Positions 27,209-36,723 of a stretch of DNA of 64,000 bases are shown in pieces; within the stretch, counting starts at the first letter, position 1; the number at the start of each line of letters is the position of its first letter. Location: NCBI GenBank assembly GCA_013619125.1, contig JABXKS010000012.1, forward strand, positions 1 to 64,000, in the 5' to 3' direction. The notes beneath the pieces are model-generated. The model made no database searches, was not told the DNA's origin, and was given only the letters and a program-made list of their open reading frames with translations. Made by a program: the position numbers and the translations under genes. The DNA is from Clostridiales bacterium (GTDB lineage: Bacteria > Bacillota > Clostridia > Tissierellales > GPF-1).

Positions 27209-27456
27209 AATAGTAAAGCGACGAACGAATGAAAATTCTTGTGGGTGTCCATAGCGAGCCGGAGATGGTGAAAGCCGGTGATTGAAGCAAGATGACGAGC
27301 TTTCGGGAGCTGTCGATTCAACCCTTTGGGGTCAAAATCGGACGACACCGCACGTTACGCGGCACGCATTCAGCGTGATAAGTGAGCAGATTCTTATGCT
27401 AATTAGGGTGGTACCGCGAAACCTTTCGTCCCTTTCAAGACGAGAGGTTTTTTTGT
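27209..27456 (+). ncRNA. T-box riboswitch 1, controlling an amino acid importer
   Basis: The invariant AGGGTGGTACCGCG is at 27405-27418. Stem I has the distal GATGGTG..AGCC loop (about 27261-27280), a mid helix TTCTTG / CAAGA, and a basal helix CGAATG / CTTTCG. A terminator stem (CCTTTCGTC / GACGAGAGG, then TTTTTTT, ending 27454) competes with the antiterminator. The specifier loop 3' strand is TGACGAG (27293-27299). Aligning with the glyQS T-box puts the specifier at CGA (Arg, 27296-27298), followed by a purine; GAC or GAG remain possible. Uncharged tRNA binding would allow transcription of the importer. Confidence 0.93.
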
Positions 27457-29744: not shown

Positions 29745-29992
29745 AAGACAAAAGCGACGAACGAAAGAAAATTCTTGTGGGTGTCCATAGCGAGCCGGAG
29801 AAGGTGAAAGCCGGTGGCAGAAGCAAGATGACGAGCTTTCGGGAGCTGCCGATTCAACCCCTGGGGGTCAAAATCGGACGACACCGCACGTTACGCGGCA
29901 CGCAATCAGCGTGATGAGTGAGCAGAGTAATTATGCTAATTAGGGTGGTACCGCGAAATCTTTCGTCCCTTTAAGACGAGAGGTTTTTTTGT
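29745..29992 (+). ncRNA. T-box riboswitch 2, near copy of the first
   Basis: AGGGTGGTACCGCG is at 29942-29955. The specifier region GCAAGATGACGAGC is identical to copy 1, so both read the same tRNA; candidate specifier CGA at 29832-29834. The basal helix is here perfect (CGAAAG / CTTTCG). The terminator stem (CTTTCGTC / GACGAGAG, TTTTTTT) is retained. Differences from copy 1 are scattered and mostly in loops or compensated. Confidence 0.93.
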
Positions 29993-31525: not shown

Positions 31526-32044
31526 ATGAATACACCAGTTGTACAAATTAAAATGCAAGACGGCGGGTTAATTGAAGTGGAATTAAACCCTCGAGTTGCA
31601 CCGAATACAGTGAATAACTTTTTATCTCTTGTGAAAAAGGGATACTATGATGGACTGATTTTTCACCGTGTTATCTCTGGTTTTATGATTCAGGGCGGTT
31701 GTCCGGACGGAACAGGAACCGGTGGTCCAGGATATGGAATTTTGGGTGAATTTTCATCCAATGGTGTCAACAATCAAATGAAGCATGATCGTGGTGTGCT
31801 TTCCATGGCACGGGCGATGCAGCCGAATTCGGCGGGCTCTCAATTCTTTATCATGCATCAAAATTCACCACATCTAGACGGTAGCTATGCGGCCTTCGGA
31901 CGAGTGACAAAGGGAATTGAAGTAGTTGATCAAATTGCAGCCACAAAAAAAGGCATGCAAGATCGACCTAAAACACCGCAAGTCATTGAATCTATGACGG
32001 TTGTAACGGATTATGATGAGTATCAAGAGCCGGAAACCCTATAA
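31526..32044 (+). CDS. Cyclophilin-type peptidyl-prolyl isomerase
   Basis: Cytoplasmic PPIase of 172 residues without a signal peptide. Family motifs are FHRVISGFMIQGGCPDGTGTGGPGY, LSMARAMQPNSAGSQFFI and YAAFGRVTKGIEVVD. The catalytic Arg (FHRV) is present. The start at 31526 is spaced six bases from AGGAGG, while ATG at 31520 directly abuts it. A -10 box TACAAT is at 31490-31495. Confidence 0.93.
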   Translation: MNTPVVQIKMQDGGLIEVELNPRVAPNTVNNFLSLVKKGYYDGLIFHRVISGFMIQGGCPDGTGTGGPGYGILGEFSSNGVNNQMKHDRGVLSMARAMQPNSAGSQFFIMHQNSPHLDGSYAAFGRVTKGIEVVDQIAATKKGMQDRPKTPQVIESMTVVTDYDEYQEPETL

Positions 32045-32082
32045 GCAAAATATTACAAAATGATGACAAATAGAAAAATGAC

Positions 32083-32111
32083 TTGAAAAAAATGAACTCG
32101 TCCTGTAGGAT
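32083..32111 (+). promoter_or_regulatory. Sigma-A promoter of the leader peptide and ABC exporter
   Basis: TTGAAA (32083-32088) and TAGGAT (32106-32111), spaced 17 bases. A leader of about 55 bases would precede the small gene at 32172. Confidence 0.65.
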
Positions 32112-32171
32112 GATGTCAGGTTACGAAATTGCAACAATTGATTCACAAATTTTCGAGAGGAGGACAAAGAT

Positions 32172-32294
32172 ATGATGACAGCAATCAAGCATCAAATGAT
32201 TCGTAGTAACTCTGGTTACGATTGGAATGAAGCACAGGATACCTGTGTCCAAAAATCAAATATATGGATTGTCCTTCAGGAGAGCGAACGATAG
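32172..32294 (+). CDS. 40-residue leader peptide of the ABC exporter operon
   Basis: Small gene encoding MMTAIKHQMIRSNSGYDWN and 21 further residues ending IVLQESER, not recognised by sequence. AGGAGG lies eight bases before the first ATG, as strong as that of any large gene nearby. It has no signal peptide or membrane helix. Its TAG stop (32292-32294) lies inside the antiterminator arm of the adjoining attenuator, and the next genes encode a heterodimeric ABC exporter. By analogy with bmrB upstream of bmrCD in Bacillus subtilis, I infer that its translation controls exporter transcription. A free small protein is the alternative. Confidence 0.75.
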   Translation: MMTAIKHQMIRSNSGYDWNEAQDTCVQKSNIWIVLQESER

Positions 32295-32352
32295 AGTACA
32301 GATTTGTACAAGTACGCTGAAACCATAGGGCAATCTGCTCTATGGTTTTTTT
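32291..32352 (+). promoter_or_regulatory. Transcription attenuator upstream of the ABC exporter
   Basis: Terminator: AACCATAGGGC (32321-32331) pairs with GCTCTATGGTT (32337-32347), one G-U, loop AATCT, followed by T to 32352. Competing antiterminator: ATAGAG (32291-32296) and CAGATT (32299-32304) pair with CTCTAT (32338-32343) and AATCTG (32332-32337), 12 pairs with a two-base bulge. The upstream arm covers the leader stop codon, so a terminating ribosome would block it and allow termination, while a stalled ribosome would free it. Confidence 0.8.
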
Positions 32353-32396
32353 GCGGCCTACACTTGGTAATTAATGGTAGATTTTACTGTAATGCC

Positions 32397-32424
32397 CCCG
32401 CAGGGAAACTTGCGGGATTTTTTT
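32397..32424 (+). terminator. Second terminator-like hairpin before the exporter
   Basis: CCCGCA (32397-32402) pairs with TGCGGG (32411-32416), followed by A and seven T. It sits 24 bases before the exporter start codon. A possible promoter (TTGGTA 32364-32369, 18 bases, TGTAAT 32388-32393) would start right at this hairpin. Confidence 0.7.
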
Positions 32425-32447
32425 ATGCAAAAAAGGGGGGGATTAAC

Positions 32448-34246
32448 ATGAGCTTTTTTCAACAAATACGAGAACATACTCGAGGGTCGGAACGATATTT
32501 TTTGATCGCGATCGGATCGGTTCTGGTTGCAAGCTATCTATCAACATTAAGTCCATTAATTATTCAATTTACCATTGATCAATTGCTGGCGGGGCAGCCA
32601 CTGGAACAACATCATTGGCTCAGCAGGTTATTGACACAAGGGATGACGAGTTTGACCACAAACCAAGGGTTGTTTTTGATGGGGCTGGCCTTGACACTGG
32701 TGATGGCGGGGCGAGGGGTCTTTGATTTTTATAAGGGACGCCACGCGGCCTTAGCCGCGGAGACCACAGTGGAACGGATTCGAGACAAGCTTTACACCCA
32801 TCTCCAGCATCTGTTTTTTGCGGAGTTGGGGGATGCGAAGAGCGGCGAATGGATTCAACGATGTTCGTCAGACGTGGAAACGGTGAGAAAATTTCTAGCC
32901 AATCAAATGACGGAAGTGATACGAGCCATCTCATTATTCGGATTCACATTGTGGATGATGCTTCAGATTGATTGGCGTATGACGATTCTTTCGACTTTCT
33001 TGATTCCGCCGATATTTGGATTTGCCTTTTTCTTTTTCAAAAAGGTTCAAAAGCTCTTTCTCGATATGGATGAGACAGAAGGCGCCCTTTCGGCACTGCT
33101 TCAGGAAAATCTGACCGGAGTACGCGTGATTCGTGCCTTTGGTCGGGAAGCGACGGAGGCGGCCAAGTTTGATGAGAAGAGTCAAGAGTATCGAGACAAG
33201 ACGATGAAACTGGTGCGTGCGATTGCCGTATATTGGGGCAGTTCGGATTTTTTAGCCATGATGCAACGCACCCTGGTCATCCTTGTTGGGACCGTTTGGG
33301 CTGTGCAAGGACGCGTGAGTTTGGGGACGGTCGTCGCTTTCTTCACCTATATCAACATGATTCTCTGGCCTATTCGTCAGATGGGTCGAATTTTGACAGA
33401 CCTCAGCAAATGCAAGGTTTCTCTAGGCCGGATTGAAGAGCTTTTGGCTTTGCCGACAGAAAATTTTGATGATCATGAACCGATGAAAACCATCTTGGGA
33501 CGTGTGGAACTGAAAAATCTTACCTTCGCTTACCCGGGAGAAGAGCCGATCTTGGAGGATTTGAACCTGATCATTGAGAAAGGGGAAACAATTGGAATCG
33601 TCGGTCCTACGGGAGCGGGTAAAAGCACCCTGGCACATTTGATTGCAGGATTGATCCCGGTGGGGGCTGATCAAGTGTTGATAGAGGTGAAGACATTGGA
33701 AGTTTTCCAGCGAAATCGATCAGAAAGCAGATTGGGATCGTGATGCAGGAGCCATTCCTCTTCGCGAGGAATATTCGAAAGAACATTGCTATCAAAGACG
33801 AGAGTGTGAGTGAGCAAGAGGTGGTTGGAGCGACGGAAACTGCCTCCTTGCATCAGACAATTTTGGGTTTCAATGCAGGTTATGATACGGAAATTGGAGA
33901 ACGGGGCGTGTCATTGTCTGGCGGACAGAAGCAGAGAATGGCTATTGCCCGCACCATTATCGACGAGGTCCCGATTGTGATCTTTGACGATTCATTAAGT
34001 GCCGTTGACGCGGGAACGGATATTGAAATTCGTAACCGATTGAAAGAGCGAAAGCATCAGGCAACGACTCTGATTATCGCCCACCGATTGAACAGCGTTA
34101 TGCATGCGGATCGAATCATGGTGCTGCGGAATGGGAAAATTGAAGCCATCGGCACCCATGGAGAATTGGTCAAGGAAAAGGGATATTATCAACGCCTTTG
34201 GGAAATTCAAAGAGGAGATTGGAAGGAGGAGAATCGCTGTGGATAA
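32448..34246 (+). pseudogene. Heterodimeric ABC exporter, subunit 1 (single-base frameshift)
   Basis: Full-length exporter half (membrane domain plus ATPase) of the BmrC/YheI type, split by a one-base loss near 33687. Up to there one frame reads LIVGPTGAGKST-type Walker A (GPTGAGKSTLAHLIAGLI) and ...QVLIE; the other frame continues [48 protein letters not shown] and IIAHRLNS. Restoring one G in GAGGTGAAG rebuilds the sequence without gap. Walker B has Asp in place of the catalytic Glu (IFDD), the mark of a degenerate subunit in heterodimeric exporters. It is either a real mutation, a sequencing error, or frameshifting; I cannot separate these. ATG 32448 has AAAGGGGGG upstream. Its C-terminal frame overlaps subunit 2. 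Confidence 0.85.
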
Positions 34247-36023
34247 ACAACAAAAAAGCCAATGGACCATAATTAAAGAACTGGCACAATTTTTCAAGCC
34301 CCATCGCAAGCAAGTGATTCAACTCGCTGTATTGATGATCTTTGTGGGCATGATGGATGCCATCAGCCCTTACTTTTCCAAATACGCGATTGACACCTAT
34401 ATCGAAACCGGCAGTCTAGATCATTACGGCATCTTTGCTGGGATCTATCTGGCTCAGGTAGTCTTCTTGAGCATCAGCGTTTATGGCCTGATCTATTTGG
34501 CCGATTCCATCGGCACAAAGGTCAGCTATGACGTGCGAAAGCGTGGATTTGAAAATCTACAGGAGCTGTCCTTTTCCTACTACGACCGGACTCCGGTCGG
34601 TTGGATTATGGCGCGGATGACCTCGGATATCGGAAAGATTACAGAGGGCATTTCTTGGGCTTTGGTTGATATGGTATGGGGCATAACCATGATCATCGCG
34701 ATTCTCGGTATCATGCTGGTCACCAATTGGCGATTGACCATGATCATGATTGTCTTGATGCCAATCCTGATGGTTGTGAGTTATTTCTTTCAAAACCGCA
34801 TTTTGAAACAGCAACGCTTGGTGCGGAAAATGAATTCACGGATCACCGGTTCATTCAGCGAAGGGATCATGGGAGCGAGAACCACCAAGAGCCTGGTTCG
34901 GGAAGAGAAAAACATCGGAGAATTTGAAGACCTTGCAAGCAATATGCGCGGGGCAGCGGTACGATCCGCTACCTTCTCGGCAGGCTATATCCCTATCGTA
35001 TTTTTAATCAATGTAGTGGGACAAGCCTTTATCTTGATTCGAGGCGGGACTGGTGTGCTTGATGGCAGCATCAGCTATGGAACCTTGGTTGCATTTATCT
35101 CCTACGCGGTTTTGATGTTCGAACCTGTGCACCACTTTGCGGTGGTTATGGCACAGTTTCAAGCCACTCGGGCTTCAGCTGAGCGAGTGATCGCTCTCTT
35201 GGAAGAAAAGCCAGAGGTGCGGGATATCGAAGCAGTGGTGGCCGAATATGGTACGGCTTTAGCGCCAAAACGAGAAAACTGGCCATCCTTATTGGGCGCG
35301 ATTTCCTTTGACGATGTGAGTTTTGCCTATAACCCCAAGGAACCTGTGCTAGACCATTTTACCTTGGAAGTGAAAAAGGGCGAAACCATCGCTCTAGTTG
35401 GTGAAACTGGATCCGGAAAAAGCACCATCGTGAATCTTGCTTGCCGATTCTATGAACCGACGGAGGGAAAGATTCGAATTGATGGGGTGAATATTCAAGA
35501 ACGGTCGCAACTGTGGCTTCATGATCATCTGGGATATGTGCTGCAGCAACCCATGCTTTTTAGTGGAAGCATCCGGGATAATATTCATTTTGGCCGGGAA
35601 GACGCCACGGAAGAGGAAATTGTGGCGGCGGCAAAACAGGTTCACGCCCATGACTTTATTCAACGCCTGCCGGCTGGATATAACACGGAGGTCGGTGAAG
35701 GGGGCGCGAAGCTTTCAACAGGGCAAAAACAATTGATTTCATTTGCCCGTGCGATTTTAAAAAATCCGCAGATCTTTATTCTTGATGAAGCGACCTCGTC
35801 CATCGATTTGGAAACCGAGGTTCAAATTCAACGAGCAACCCAAGCCATCTTGGCTGGGCGGACCAGTTTTATTATTGCTCATCGCTTGTCGACCATTGTT
35901 CATGCGGACAAGATTCTGGTATTAAAGGATGGTCGCATTGCTGAGCAGGGCAATCATAACAGCTTGATGAAGGCGAAGGGCATTTATTATAAGTTGTATC
36001 GAAGTCAATTCGACGCGGCATAG
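34239..36023 (+). CDS. Heterodimeric ABC exporter, subunit 2 (BmrD-like)
   Basis: Half-transporter of 594 residues: six membrane helices, then an ATPase with Walker A GETGSGKST, Walker B IFILDEATSSID with the catalytic Glu, and H-loop IIAHRLST. The signature is LSTGQKQ, departing from LSGGQ, whereas subunit 1 keeps LSGGQKQ. The two subunits would therefore make one complete and one degenerate ATP site, typical of multidrug exporters such as BmrCD. GTG at 34239 with AAGGAGGAG upstream, overlapping subunit 1 by eight bases. Substrates are inferred to be drugs, lipids or peptides. Confidence 0.93.
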   Translation: MDKQQKSQWTIIKELAQFFKPHRKQVIQLAVLMIFVGMMDAISPYFSKYAIDTYIETGSLDHYGIFAGIYLAQVVFLSISVYGLIYLADSIGTKVSYDVRKRGFENLQELSFSYYDRTPVGWIMARMTSDIGKITEGISWALVDMVWGITMIIAILGIMLVTNWRLTMIMIVLMPILMVVSYFFQNRILKQQRLVRKMNSRITGSFSEGIMGARTTKSLVREEKNIGEFEDLASNMRGAAVRSATFSAGYIPIVFLINVVGQAFILIRGGTGVLDGSISYGTLVAFISYAVLMFEPVHHFAVVMAQFQATRASAERVIALLEEKPEVRDIEAVVAEYGTALAPKRENWPSLLGAISFDDVSFAYNPKEPVLDHFTLEVKKGETIALVGETGSGKSTIVNLACRFYEPTEGKIRIDGVNIQERSQLWLHDHLGYVLQQPMLFSGSIRDNIHFGREDATEEEIVAAAKQVHAHDFIQRLPAGYNTEVGEGGAKLSTGQKQLISFARAILKNPQIFILDEATSSIDLETEVQIQRATQAILAGRTSFIIAHRLSTIVHADKILVLKDGRIAEQGNHNSLMKAKGIYYKLYRSQFDAA

Positions 36024-36041: not shown

Positions 36042-36294
36042 GCAGGAAGTGTTTACATTTCCTGCAGGATGCATCGATAGTTGCGAGGATCATATGGTTT
36101 ATATGATCCTAAAGGAAACCTAAGGAATCATATGGTTTATATGATCCTAAAGGAAACCCAAGGAGGGATCGTTGTACGATCCACGAACAGAACTAAAGAG
36201 CAGGGAGTGCTTGCATTCCTTGAGACGAGCATAATGTTTGTAAGGATCATAGATTTTTGATCCACAAAATAAATTAATAAGGATCAATCAATCC
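36042..36294 (+). repeat. Array of RNA hairpins downstream of the exporter
   Basis: At least six inverted repeats in 250 bases: GCAGGAAGTG / CATTTCCTGC (36042-36065), GGATCATAT / ATATGATCC (36087-36109), the same again with one mismatch (36124-36147, 38-base period), GGATCG / CGATCC (36166-36182), a second AGGGAGTG / CATTCCT (36202-36220) and GGATCA / TGATCC (36244-36263). The order of an AGCAGG-type hairpin followed by a GGATCAT hairpin occurs twice, so a unit of about 70 bases was duplicated. No T runs follow them, so they are not terminators. Confidence 0.85.
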
Positions 36295-36408: not shown

Positions 36409-36513
36409 ATGAGACGATTTAAATTTTTCCATTTCCCAGTTGAGCTGATGCATTTTAACTTTATGCGTCGGGTAGACGGGATGGAGCTCTACAGAAGAAT
36501 AGAGCGACTGTAA
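36409..36513 (+). CDS. Microprotein B1, 34 residues, unknown function
   Basis: Encodes a peptide starting MRRFKFFHFPVELMHFNF and ending RRVDGMELYRRIERL. AGGAGG lies nine bases upstream. It shares about half its residues, without gaps, with the gene at 36616, notably EL..FNF-type and VDGM-LYR-IER positions. The aromatic, basic N-terminus followed by a charged C-terminal half suggests an amphipathic or membrane-surface peptide; function unknown. Confidence 0.7.
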   Translation: MRRFKFFHFPVELMHFNFMRRVDGMELYRRIERL

Positions 36514-36536: not shown

Positions 36537-36650
36537 ATGATGACAGATCGAAAGACGGACCGGCGGAAGGCTTGGAGAGAGGATCGATTTGTCCGGAAAC
36601 GGAAAGGAGCACCAAATGAAACGATTATTTACATGGATTTATTCAAGTGA
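36537..36650 (+). CDS. Microprotein A2, 37 residues, unknown function
   Basis: Encodes a very basic peptide beginning MMTDRKTDRRKAWREDRF. GAGGAGG is upstream with usual spacing to 36537 or 36540. Its C-terminal codons overlap the B2 gene in another frame by 35 bases, and its coding sequence contains the B2 ribosome binding site (AAAGGAG). It pairs with B2 as A1 pairs with B1. The start MMT is shared with the leader peptide at 32172, perhaps by chance. Confidence 0.55.
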   Translation: MMTDRKTDRRKAWREDRFVRKRKGAPNETIIYMDLFK

Positions 36651-36723
36651 ACTGAACTTCTGGAATTTTGAGAAGAAGGTTGACGGAATGGATCTTTACC
36701 GTTCGATTGAACGGATTTCATAG
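36616..36723 (+). CDS. Microprotein B2, 35 residues, unknown function
   Basis: Encodes a peptide starting MKRLFTWIYSSELNFWNF and ending KKVDGMDLYRSIERIS. AAAGGAG lies six bases upstream of ATG 36616. Against B1, 16 of 34 aligned residues are identical and most others conservative, which supports both as true coding sequences. The codon differences at conserved residues are largely third-base changes, as expected for protein-level selection. It is followed by a bidirectional terminator. Confidence 0.7.
   Translation: MKRLFTWIYSSELNFWNFEKKVDGMDLYRSIERIS

Follow-up and report, generated by a model that had tools for sequence, protein, structure and literature searches.

The closest described systems come from Bacillus subtilis and Listeria. 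The B. subtilis bmrB leader requires translation, and it is induced by inhibitors of the 50S subunit (Reilman 2014, PMC4191407). Blocking its translation lowered expression and abolished induction by lincomycin. A terminator, an antiterminator and an anti-antiterminator are predicted inside the ORF, at nucleotides 60 to 162 (PMC4191407). The B. subtilis gene vmlR encodes an ABC-F resistance factor, and early stalling on its upstream ORF (uORF) prevents the anti-antiterminator from forming. That uORF, located within SL-1, encodes just a tripeptide, and the Shine-Dalgarno sequence in front of it is predicted to be single-stranded (PMC9226507). At Rli59/lmo1652 of Listeria, lincomycin, erythromycin and chloramphenicol relieve premature termination. 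Detail on the Rli59 pairing mechanism is described as lacking in the source (PMC8079631).

Here we describe a leader in front of an ABC exporter in a 64,000-nucleotide stretch of a Clostridiales genome (the window). Like bmrB-bmrCD, it combines a translated leader ORF, a three-way set of hairpins and a downstream heterodimeric ABC multidrug exporter (PMC4191407). An earlier sequence-only reading had called it bmrB-like. That label suits the principle and not the anatomy: unlike in the published bmrB layout, terminator T1 lies after the stop codon, a second terminator (T2) follows T1, and the Shine-Dalgarno sequence serves as the anti-antiterminator arm. The locus resembles vmlR (PMC9226507) and Rli53/lmo0919 (PMC8079631) as a uORF-controlled switch between anti-antiterminator, antiterminator and terminator in which very early stalling would free the antiterminator. 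It differs from that type in having leaders of 21 to 60 codons among relatives rather than a tripeptide, and an exporter rather than an ABC-F gene downstream. Listeria lmo0919 also encodes an ABC-F protein. The likeness to Rli59/lmo1652, where a cis RNA carrying a small ORF precedes an ABC transporter gene, is one of description only (PMC8079631).

The leader and exporter locus

Features of the locus. All positions are those of the window.
Feature	Position	Strand	Description
Candidate sigma-70-type promoter, TTGAAA, 17 nt, TAGGAT	32083..32111	+	9/12 consensus matches
Segment A, GGAGGACAA	32159..32167	+	Leader Shine-Dalgarno and spacer; predicted arm of the A:B anti-antiterminator
Leader ORF	32172..32294	+	40 codons; start 32172 or 32175; MMTAIKHQMIRSNSGYDWNEAQDTCVQKSNIWIVLQESER
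Segment B, GGATTGTCCTTC	32266..32277	+	3' end of leader ORF; predicted partner of A or C1
Hairpin around leader stop codon, AGCG...CGCT	32283..32318	+	Within the B:C1 antiterminator; RNAalifold, three genomes
Terminator T1	32320..32352	+	C1 5' arm, loop, D1 3' arm, T-run tail
T1 tail, TTTTTTTGCGG	32346..32356	+	Complementary to T2 5' arm, 32398-32408
Terminator T2, CCCGCAGGGAAACTTGCGGG + ATTTTTTTAT	32397..32426	+	Terminator-like hairpin; kept in both sisters
ABC exporter subunit 1	32448..34246	+	Frame broken near 33686; intact, 599 aa, in both sisters
ABC exporter subunit 2	34239..36023	+	594 aa, intact

The leader ORF is as the sequence-only reading had it. It has AGGAGG at 32158-32163, 8 nt before the ATG, and a TAG stop at 32292-32294. 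Its length, start and stop position are the same in both congeneric genomes. The terminator with a T run is also present. It consists of the stem-loop AAACCATAGGGCAATCTGCTCTATGGTTT (32320-32348) followed by the T run, and it begins 25 nt after the leader stop. The region 32280-32355 folds at -27 kcal/mol (z = -4.26), which was equalled by 0 of 200 shuffles. T1, like T2, is kept in both sisters.

Folding the three genomes of the genus gave two further pairings, which together with T2 and a frameshift in subunit 1 go beyond the earlier reading. GGAGGACAA in A pairs with TTGTCCTTC in B, and GGATTGTCCT in B pairs with AGGGCAATCT in C1. A forms 9 bp with 32269-32277, and the portion of C1 that pairs with B is 32327-32336. 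About 20 nt separate B from the leader stop, and its CC is 22 nt from the end of the stop codon. Among the three genomes, the bases of A and B that pair are invariant. B:C1 is weak in one of them, G002 (-11.1 kcal/mol, p = 0.10). The hairpin around the stop codon has altered outer pairs in the sisters that are mostly retained. As modelled, A:B, B:C1 and C1:D1 are mutually exclusive, and B:C1 and C1:D1 both use C1. C1 and its loop resemble A (AGGGCAA and AGGACAA in the window; AGGCGTG and AGGTCGTG in relatives), and one B can serve both A and C1 because C1 and its loop imitate A.

The sequence-only reading had proposed a ribosome-controlled attenuator, and its general terms, a translated ORF, an exclusive antiterminator and terminator and a downstream ABC exporter, are well supported by comparison with relatives. 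The antiterminator it chose did not hold up. It had placed a 12-bp antiterminator with its upstream arm at 32291-32304, overlapping the stop codon, so that the terminating ribosome alone would matter. This pairing does exist in the window genome, at -13.4 kcal/mol. It is not conserved: the best equivalents in the sister genomes reach -8.7 and -7.1 kcal/mol. A 9-nt insertion between the leader stop and T1 is found in the window genome and is absent from both sisters, and part of the arm falls inside it. The arm is 3' of B and did not appear as an element common to relatives. Judged by the covariation in relatives that the reading itself had asked for, this arm fails and a different set of arms, described below, passes. 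We regard an antiterminator at 32291-32304 as very unlikely.

The gene downstream of the leader encodes an ABC exporter with a transmembrane domain and not an ABC-F protein. ABC_membrane and ABC_tran domains (Pfam) were found in the intact G001 copy of subunit 1. The window copy has a one-base deletion near 33686 (33680-33690), between the Walker A motif and the Q loop; this is either a true pseudogene or a sequencing or assembly error. As read from the sequence, subunit 1 has FDDSLSAVD in place of the usual FDEATSALD, and subunit 2 has LSTGQ in place of LSGGQ. This combination is expected of heterodimeric exporters in which one ATP site is degenerate. Bacterial heterodimers matched among PDB sequences include TM287/288, TmrAB and YheI/YheH. 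TM287/288 and TmrAB score about as high as BmrCD or higher, and by these sequence matches the exporter is no specific counterpart of BmrCD. PADLOC matches to the exporter are weak and partial, and are probably caused by the ATPase domain.

Two T-box leaders (Rfam RF00230) lie elsewhere in the window, at 27212-27436 and 29748-29973. They stand upstream of two near-duplicate genes, each for the substrate-binding protein of an ABC importer of the amino-acid type. At 36084-36270, between the exporter and two similar small ORFs located 3' of it, short palindromes are repeated (GGATCATATGGTTTATATGATCC and variants). These ORFs (36409-36513 and 36616-36723) end in ...RRVDGMELYRRIERL and ...KKVDGMDLYRSIERIS. 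They have Shine-Dalgarno sequences, are kept in G001 and gave no Pfam match.

The candidate promoter ahead of the leader is the sole promoter-like site at 31900-32500 on both strands; shuffles average 1.3 such sites, and it is weak evidence alone. All three genus members have an identical -10 box here, and the -35 box retains TTGA. The leader ORF might be an independent small gene with an ordinary terminator, in front of an exporter that has its own promoter. Its conservation within the genus, with a dN/dS of about 0.5 between the two sister genomes, fits that arrangement. The part of this interval that separates T1 from the exporter yielded no promoter-like site, and across the order a leader and tandem terminators with covarying arms stand at the exporter. 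We give the independent-gene arrangement hardly any credence.

Conservation of the pairing segments across the order

Of 249 genomes of the order, 92 have an ortholog of subunit 1 at E <= 1e-110, mostly with 42-48% identity. We examined 67 upstream regions of relatives. From these, 58 leaders were modelled, which with the three genus members gave 61. A core stem, ACCATAGG..CCTATGG, recurs before exporter orthologs across the order. The upstream regions repeatedly contain two terminators with the stem ACCATAGG...CCTATGGT and, ahead of them, a leader ORF marked by AAGGAGGTCGTGAAGATG ... CACGACCTATG. An ORF with a translatable layout is present in all 61 modelled leaders. The A:B pairing joins CACGACCT to its exact complement, AGGTCGTG, and the B:C1 pairing joins CCTATG to its complement, CATAGG. 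Separate ORFs of 16 to 24 codons with their own Shine-Dalgarno sequences lie between T2 and the exporter at seven loci (L101, L107, L109, L119, L127, L134 and L147).

A:B paired better than shuffles (p<0.05) in 57 of 61 leaders and B:C1 in 43 of 59, with single p-values that are inflated because the best-pairing ORF at each locus was chosen during annotation. The same choice inflates the re-dealing test, in which 4.74 of 5 A:B positions were paired with their own partners and 3.67 (maximum 4.07) with partners re-dealt. Each of the first five A:B positions uses at least three standard pair types, and the first two are standard in all 54 distinct A/B pairs. With its own partner, A:B had an energy of -14.0 kcal/mol; partners taken from other sequence groups gave -8.4 kcal/mol. 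The corresponding values for B:C1 were -13.7 and -8.7 kcal/mol. Compensatory changes in the arms include AGGCCATG with TATGGCCT (L111, L114), TCGTA with TACGA (L118, L135), TTGCG with CGCAA (L148), GGTAAT with GTTACC (L150) and AGGAGGA with ATCCTCC plus a CCGTAGG stem (L140, L143). The genus of the window has GGACAA with TTGTCC.

The leader peptide gave no family match, and a search of the 249 genomes returned it in three genomes, all of one genus. Weak matches elsewhere (E 0.04 and worse) were set aside; those inspected do not precede this exporter. Segment B is read in all three frames of the leader ORF (40, 10 and 11 leaders), which indicates that the RNA is conserved and not the peptide. 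The distance from B to the end of the stop codon is nearly fixed, at 18-23 nt (quartiles), where a terminating ribosome would cover B. Together, the covariation tests, the use of all frames and this near-fixed distance argue that the RNA is under selection and that the position of the ribosome at the end of the ORF matters.

These data bear on two other ways in which the leader could act. In the first, a drug and the nascent peptide would together stall the ribosome at a fixed leader codon, in the style of ErmCL or ErmDL. Members of the genus share a conserved C-terminal half of the peptide, and near the N terminus +X+ motifs are a little more frequent than in shuffles (29% versus 18%, reached by 13 of 1,000 shuffles). 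The peptides of relatives, on the other hand, have no obvious common sequence beyond what segment B imposes, and B is not tied to one frame. Arrest by a specific peptide is unlikely. In the second, charged tRNA would be sensed through control codons, as in trp or his attenuators. A leader peptide with alternative hairpins is the classical layout for this. The leaders share no run of a single amino acid, their composition varies freely, and the gene downstream is an exporter. Amino-acid attenuation is very unlikely.

Proposed switch

We consider it highly probable that the leader is a ribosome-mediated transcription attenuator in which four RNA segments compete and B is freed, letting polymerase pass, when a ribosome is held at the start of the leader. 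In the OFF state, A would pair with B, or a ribosome completing the ORF would occupy B. C1 would then pair with D1, T1 would form, and the exporter would not be transcribed. In the ON state, a ribosome stopped at the ribosome-binding site or the first codons would cover A and leave B bare. B would pair with C1, T1 would be blocked, and transcription would go on. The variable sensed would be the location of the ribosome on the leader and not the sequence of the peptide. This logic agrees with the published bmrB and vmlR data.

Predicted folds were compared with parts of the leader masked. With the start region masked, 93% of 58 leaders are predicted to favour B:C1 before D1 has been synthesized. 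When B is masked instead, A:B and B:C1 are both impossible and T1 is predicted to be free to form. Once T1 is complete, free-energy models always favour the terminator, and full-length folding cannot separate ON from OFF; the switch must therefore be kinetic. With no ribosome, G000 is predicted to prefer B:C1 as C1 emerges (0.88-0.94), as are about 40% of leaders.

If ribosome location is what is sensed, inhibitors that halt ribosomes at or just after initiation are likely inducers. The sequence-only reading had also proposed induction by translation inhibitors; our prediction is for drugs that hold the ribosome on the first codons. The presence of this design at the same pump in dozens of related bacteria suggests that slowed protein synthesis is their cue to switch on the pump. 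If the proposal is right, it provides a rule, visible in the sequence, for exporter induction under disturbed translation in poorly studied Clostridia. The leader's own ribosome-binding site would be the sensor strand, and almost any leader peptide would suffice. Homology searches with leader peptides would fail because the peptide is nearly free. The A, B, C1 and D1 arms are a ready set for compensatory mutants.

Second terminator and distribution

Two terminators were found in 47 of the 61 leaders. T2 would be a second barrier to transcription. In relatives with two terminators, D1-spacer-C2 folds are closed by D1:C2, mostly with 8-14 pairs, and the spacer often forms its own hairpin. When B takes C1 in these relatives, D1 would be released and could pair with the 5' arm of T2, so that T2 would be opened too. 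D1:C2 energies were -15.7 kcal/mol with own partners versus -11.4 kcal/mol with foreign partners overall, and the value within divergent groups was 0.51. We treat this relay as conjecture because D1:C2 does not discriminate within divergent groups. The similar stems of T1 and T2 could stem from duplication of a terminator.

D1:C2 is weak in the genus of the window (-8.9 kcal/mol), where the T2 sequence differs. There, the T1 tail and the T2 5' arm can form 11 contiguous pairs, three of them G-U, as read from the sequence. This pairing forms only partly in the D1-spacer-C2 fold. It is possible that the T1 tail is a T2 antiterminator in this genus. An uncatalogued family of clostridial attenuators may exist with two terminators in series, in which one decision on ribosome position at the leader Shine-Dalgarno opens both and failed antitermination closes both. 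The link would have been lost, or replaced by the T1 tail, in the genus of the window. We put this reading at somewhat under an even chance. The serial terminators offer a testable design for tight control.

No Rfam match at the gathering score was obtained at 32083-32450 or in 11 relatives. No published description of the leader design was found in the openly accessible papers searched, which does not prove that none exists. The principle of the attenuator is already known; the anatomy with a Shine-Dalgarno arm appears to be new and is present in dozens of genomes.

Across the order's 249 genomes there are 35 sites with the exact motif AGGAGGTCGTGNNNATG, and about 30 lie no more than a few hundred nucleotides from the exporter. 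A search for AGGAGGTCGTGNNNATG in 391 genomes drawn from the class retrieved leaders of the same design in families outside the order as well, and several of these precede the same exporter. Some members of one family have the leader and terminators in front of small ORFs, and in some of these a gene encoding a Schlafen AlbA_2 domain lies further on. At L159, L161, L162 and L176, small ORFs and a Schlafen AlbA_2-like gene replace the exporter about 230-1500 nt after the leader start. The small ORFs of L159 and L162 contain a LYQSLEY-like motif. Genes for two-component systems lie upstream of the leader in L159, L162 and L176.
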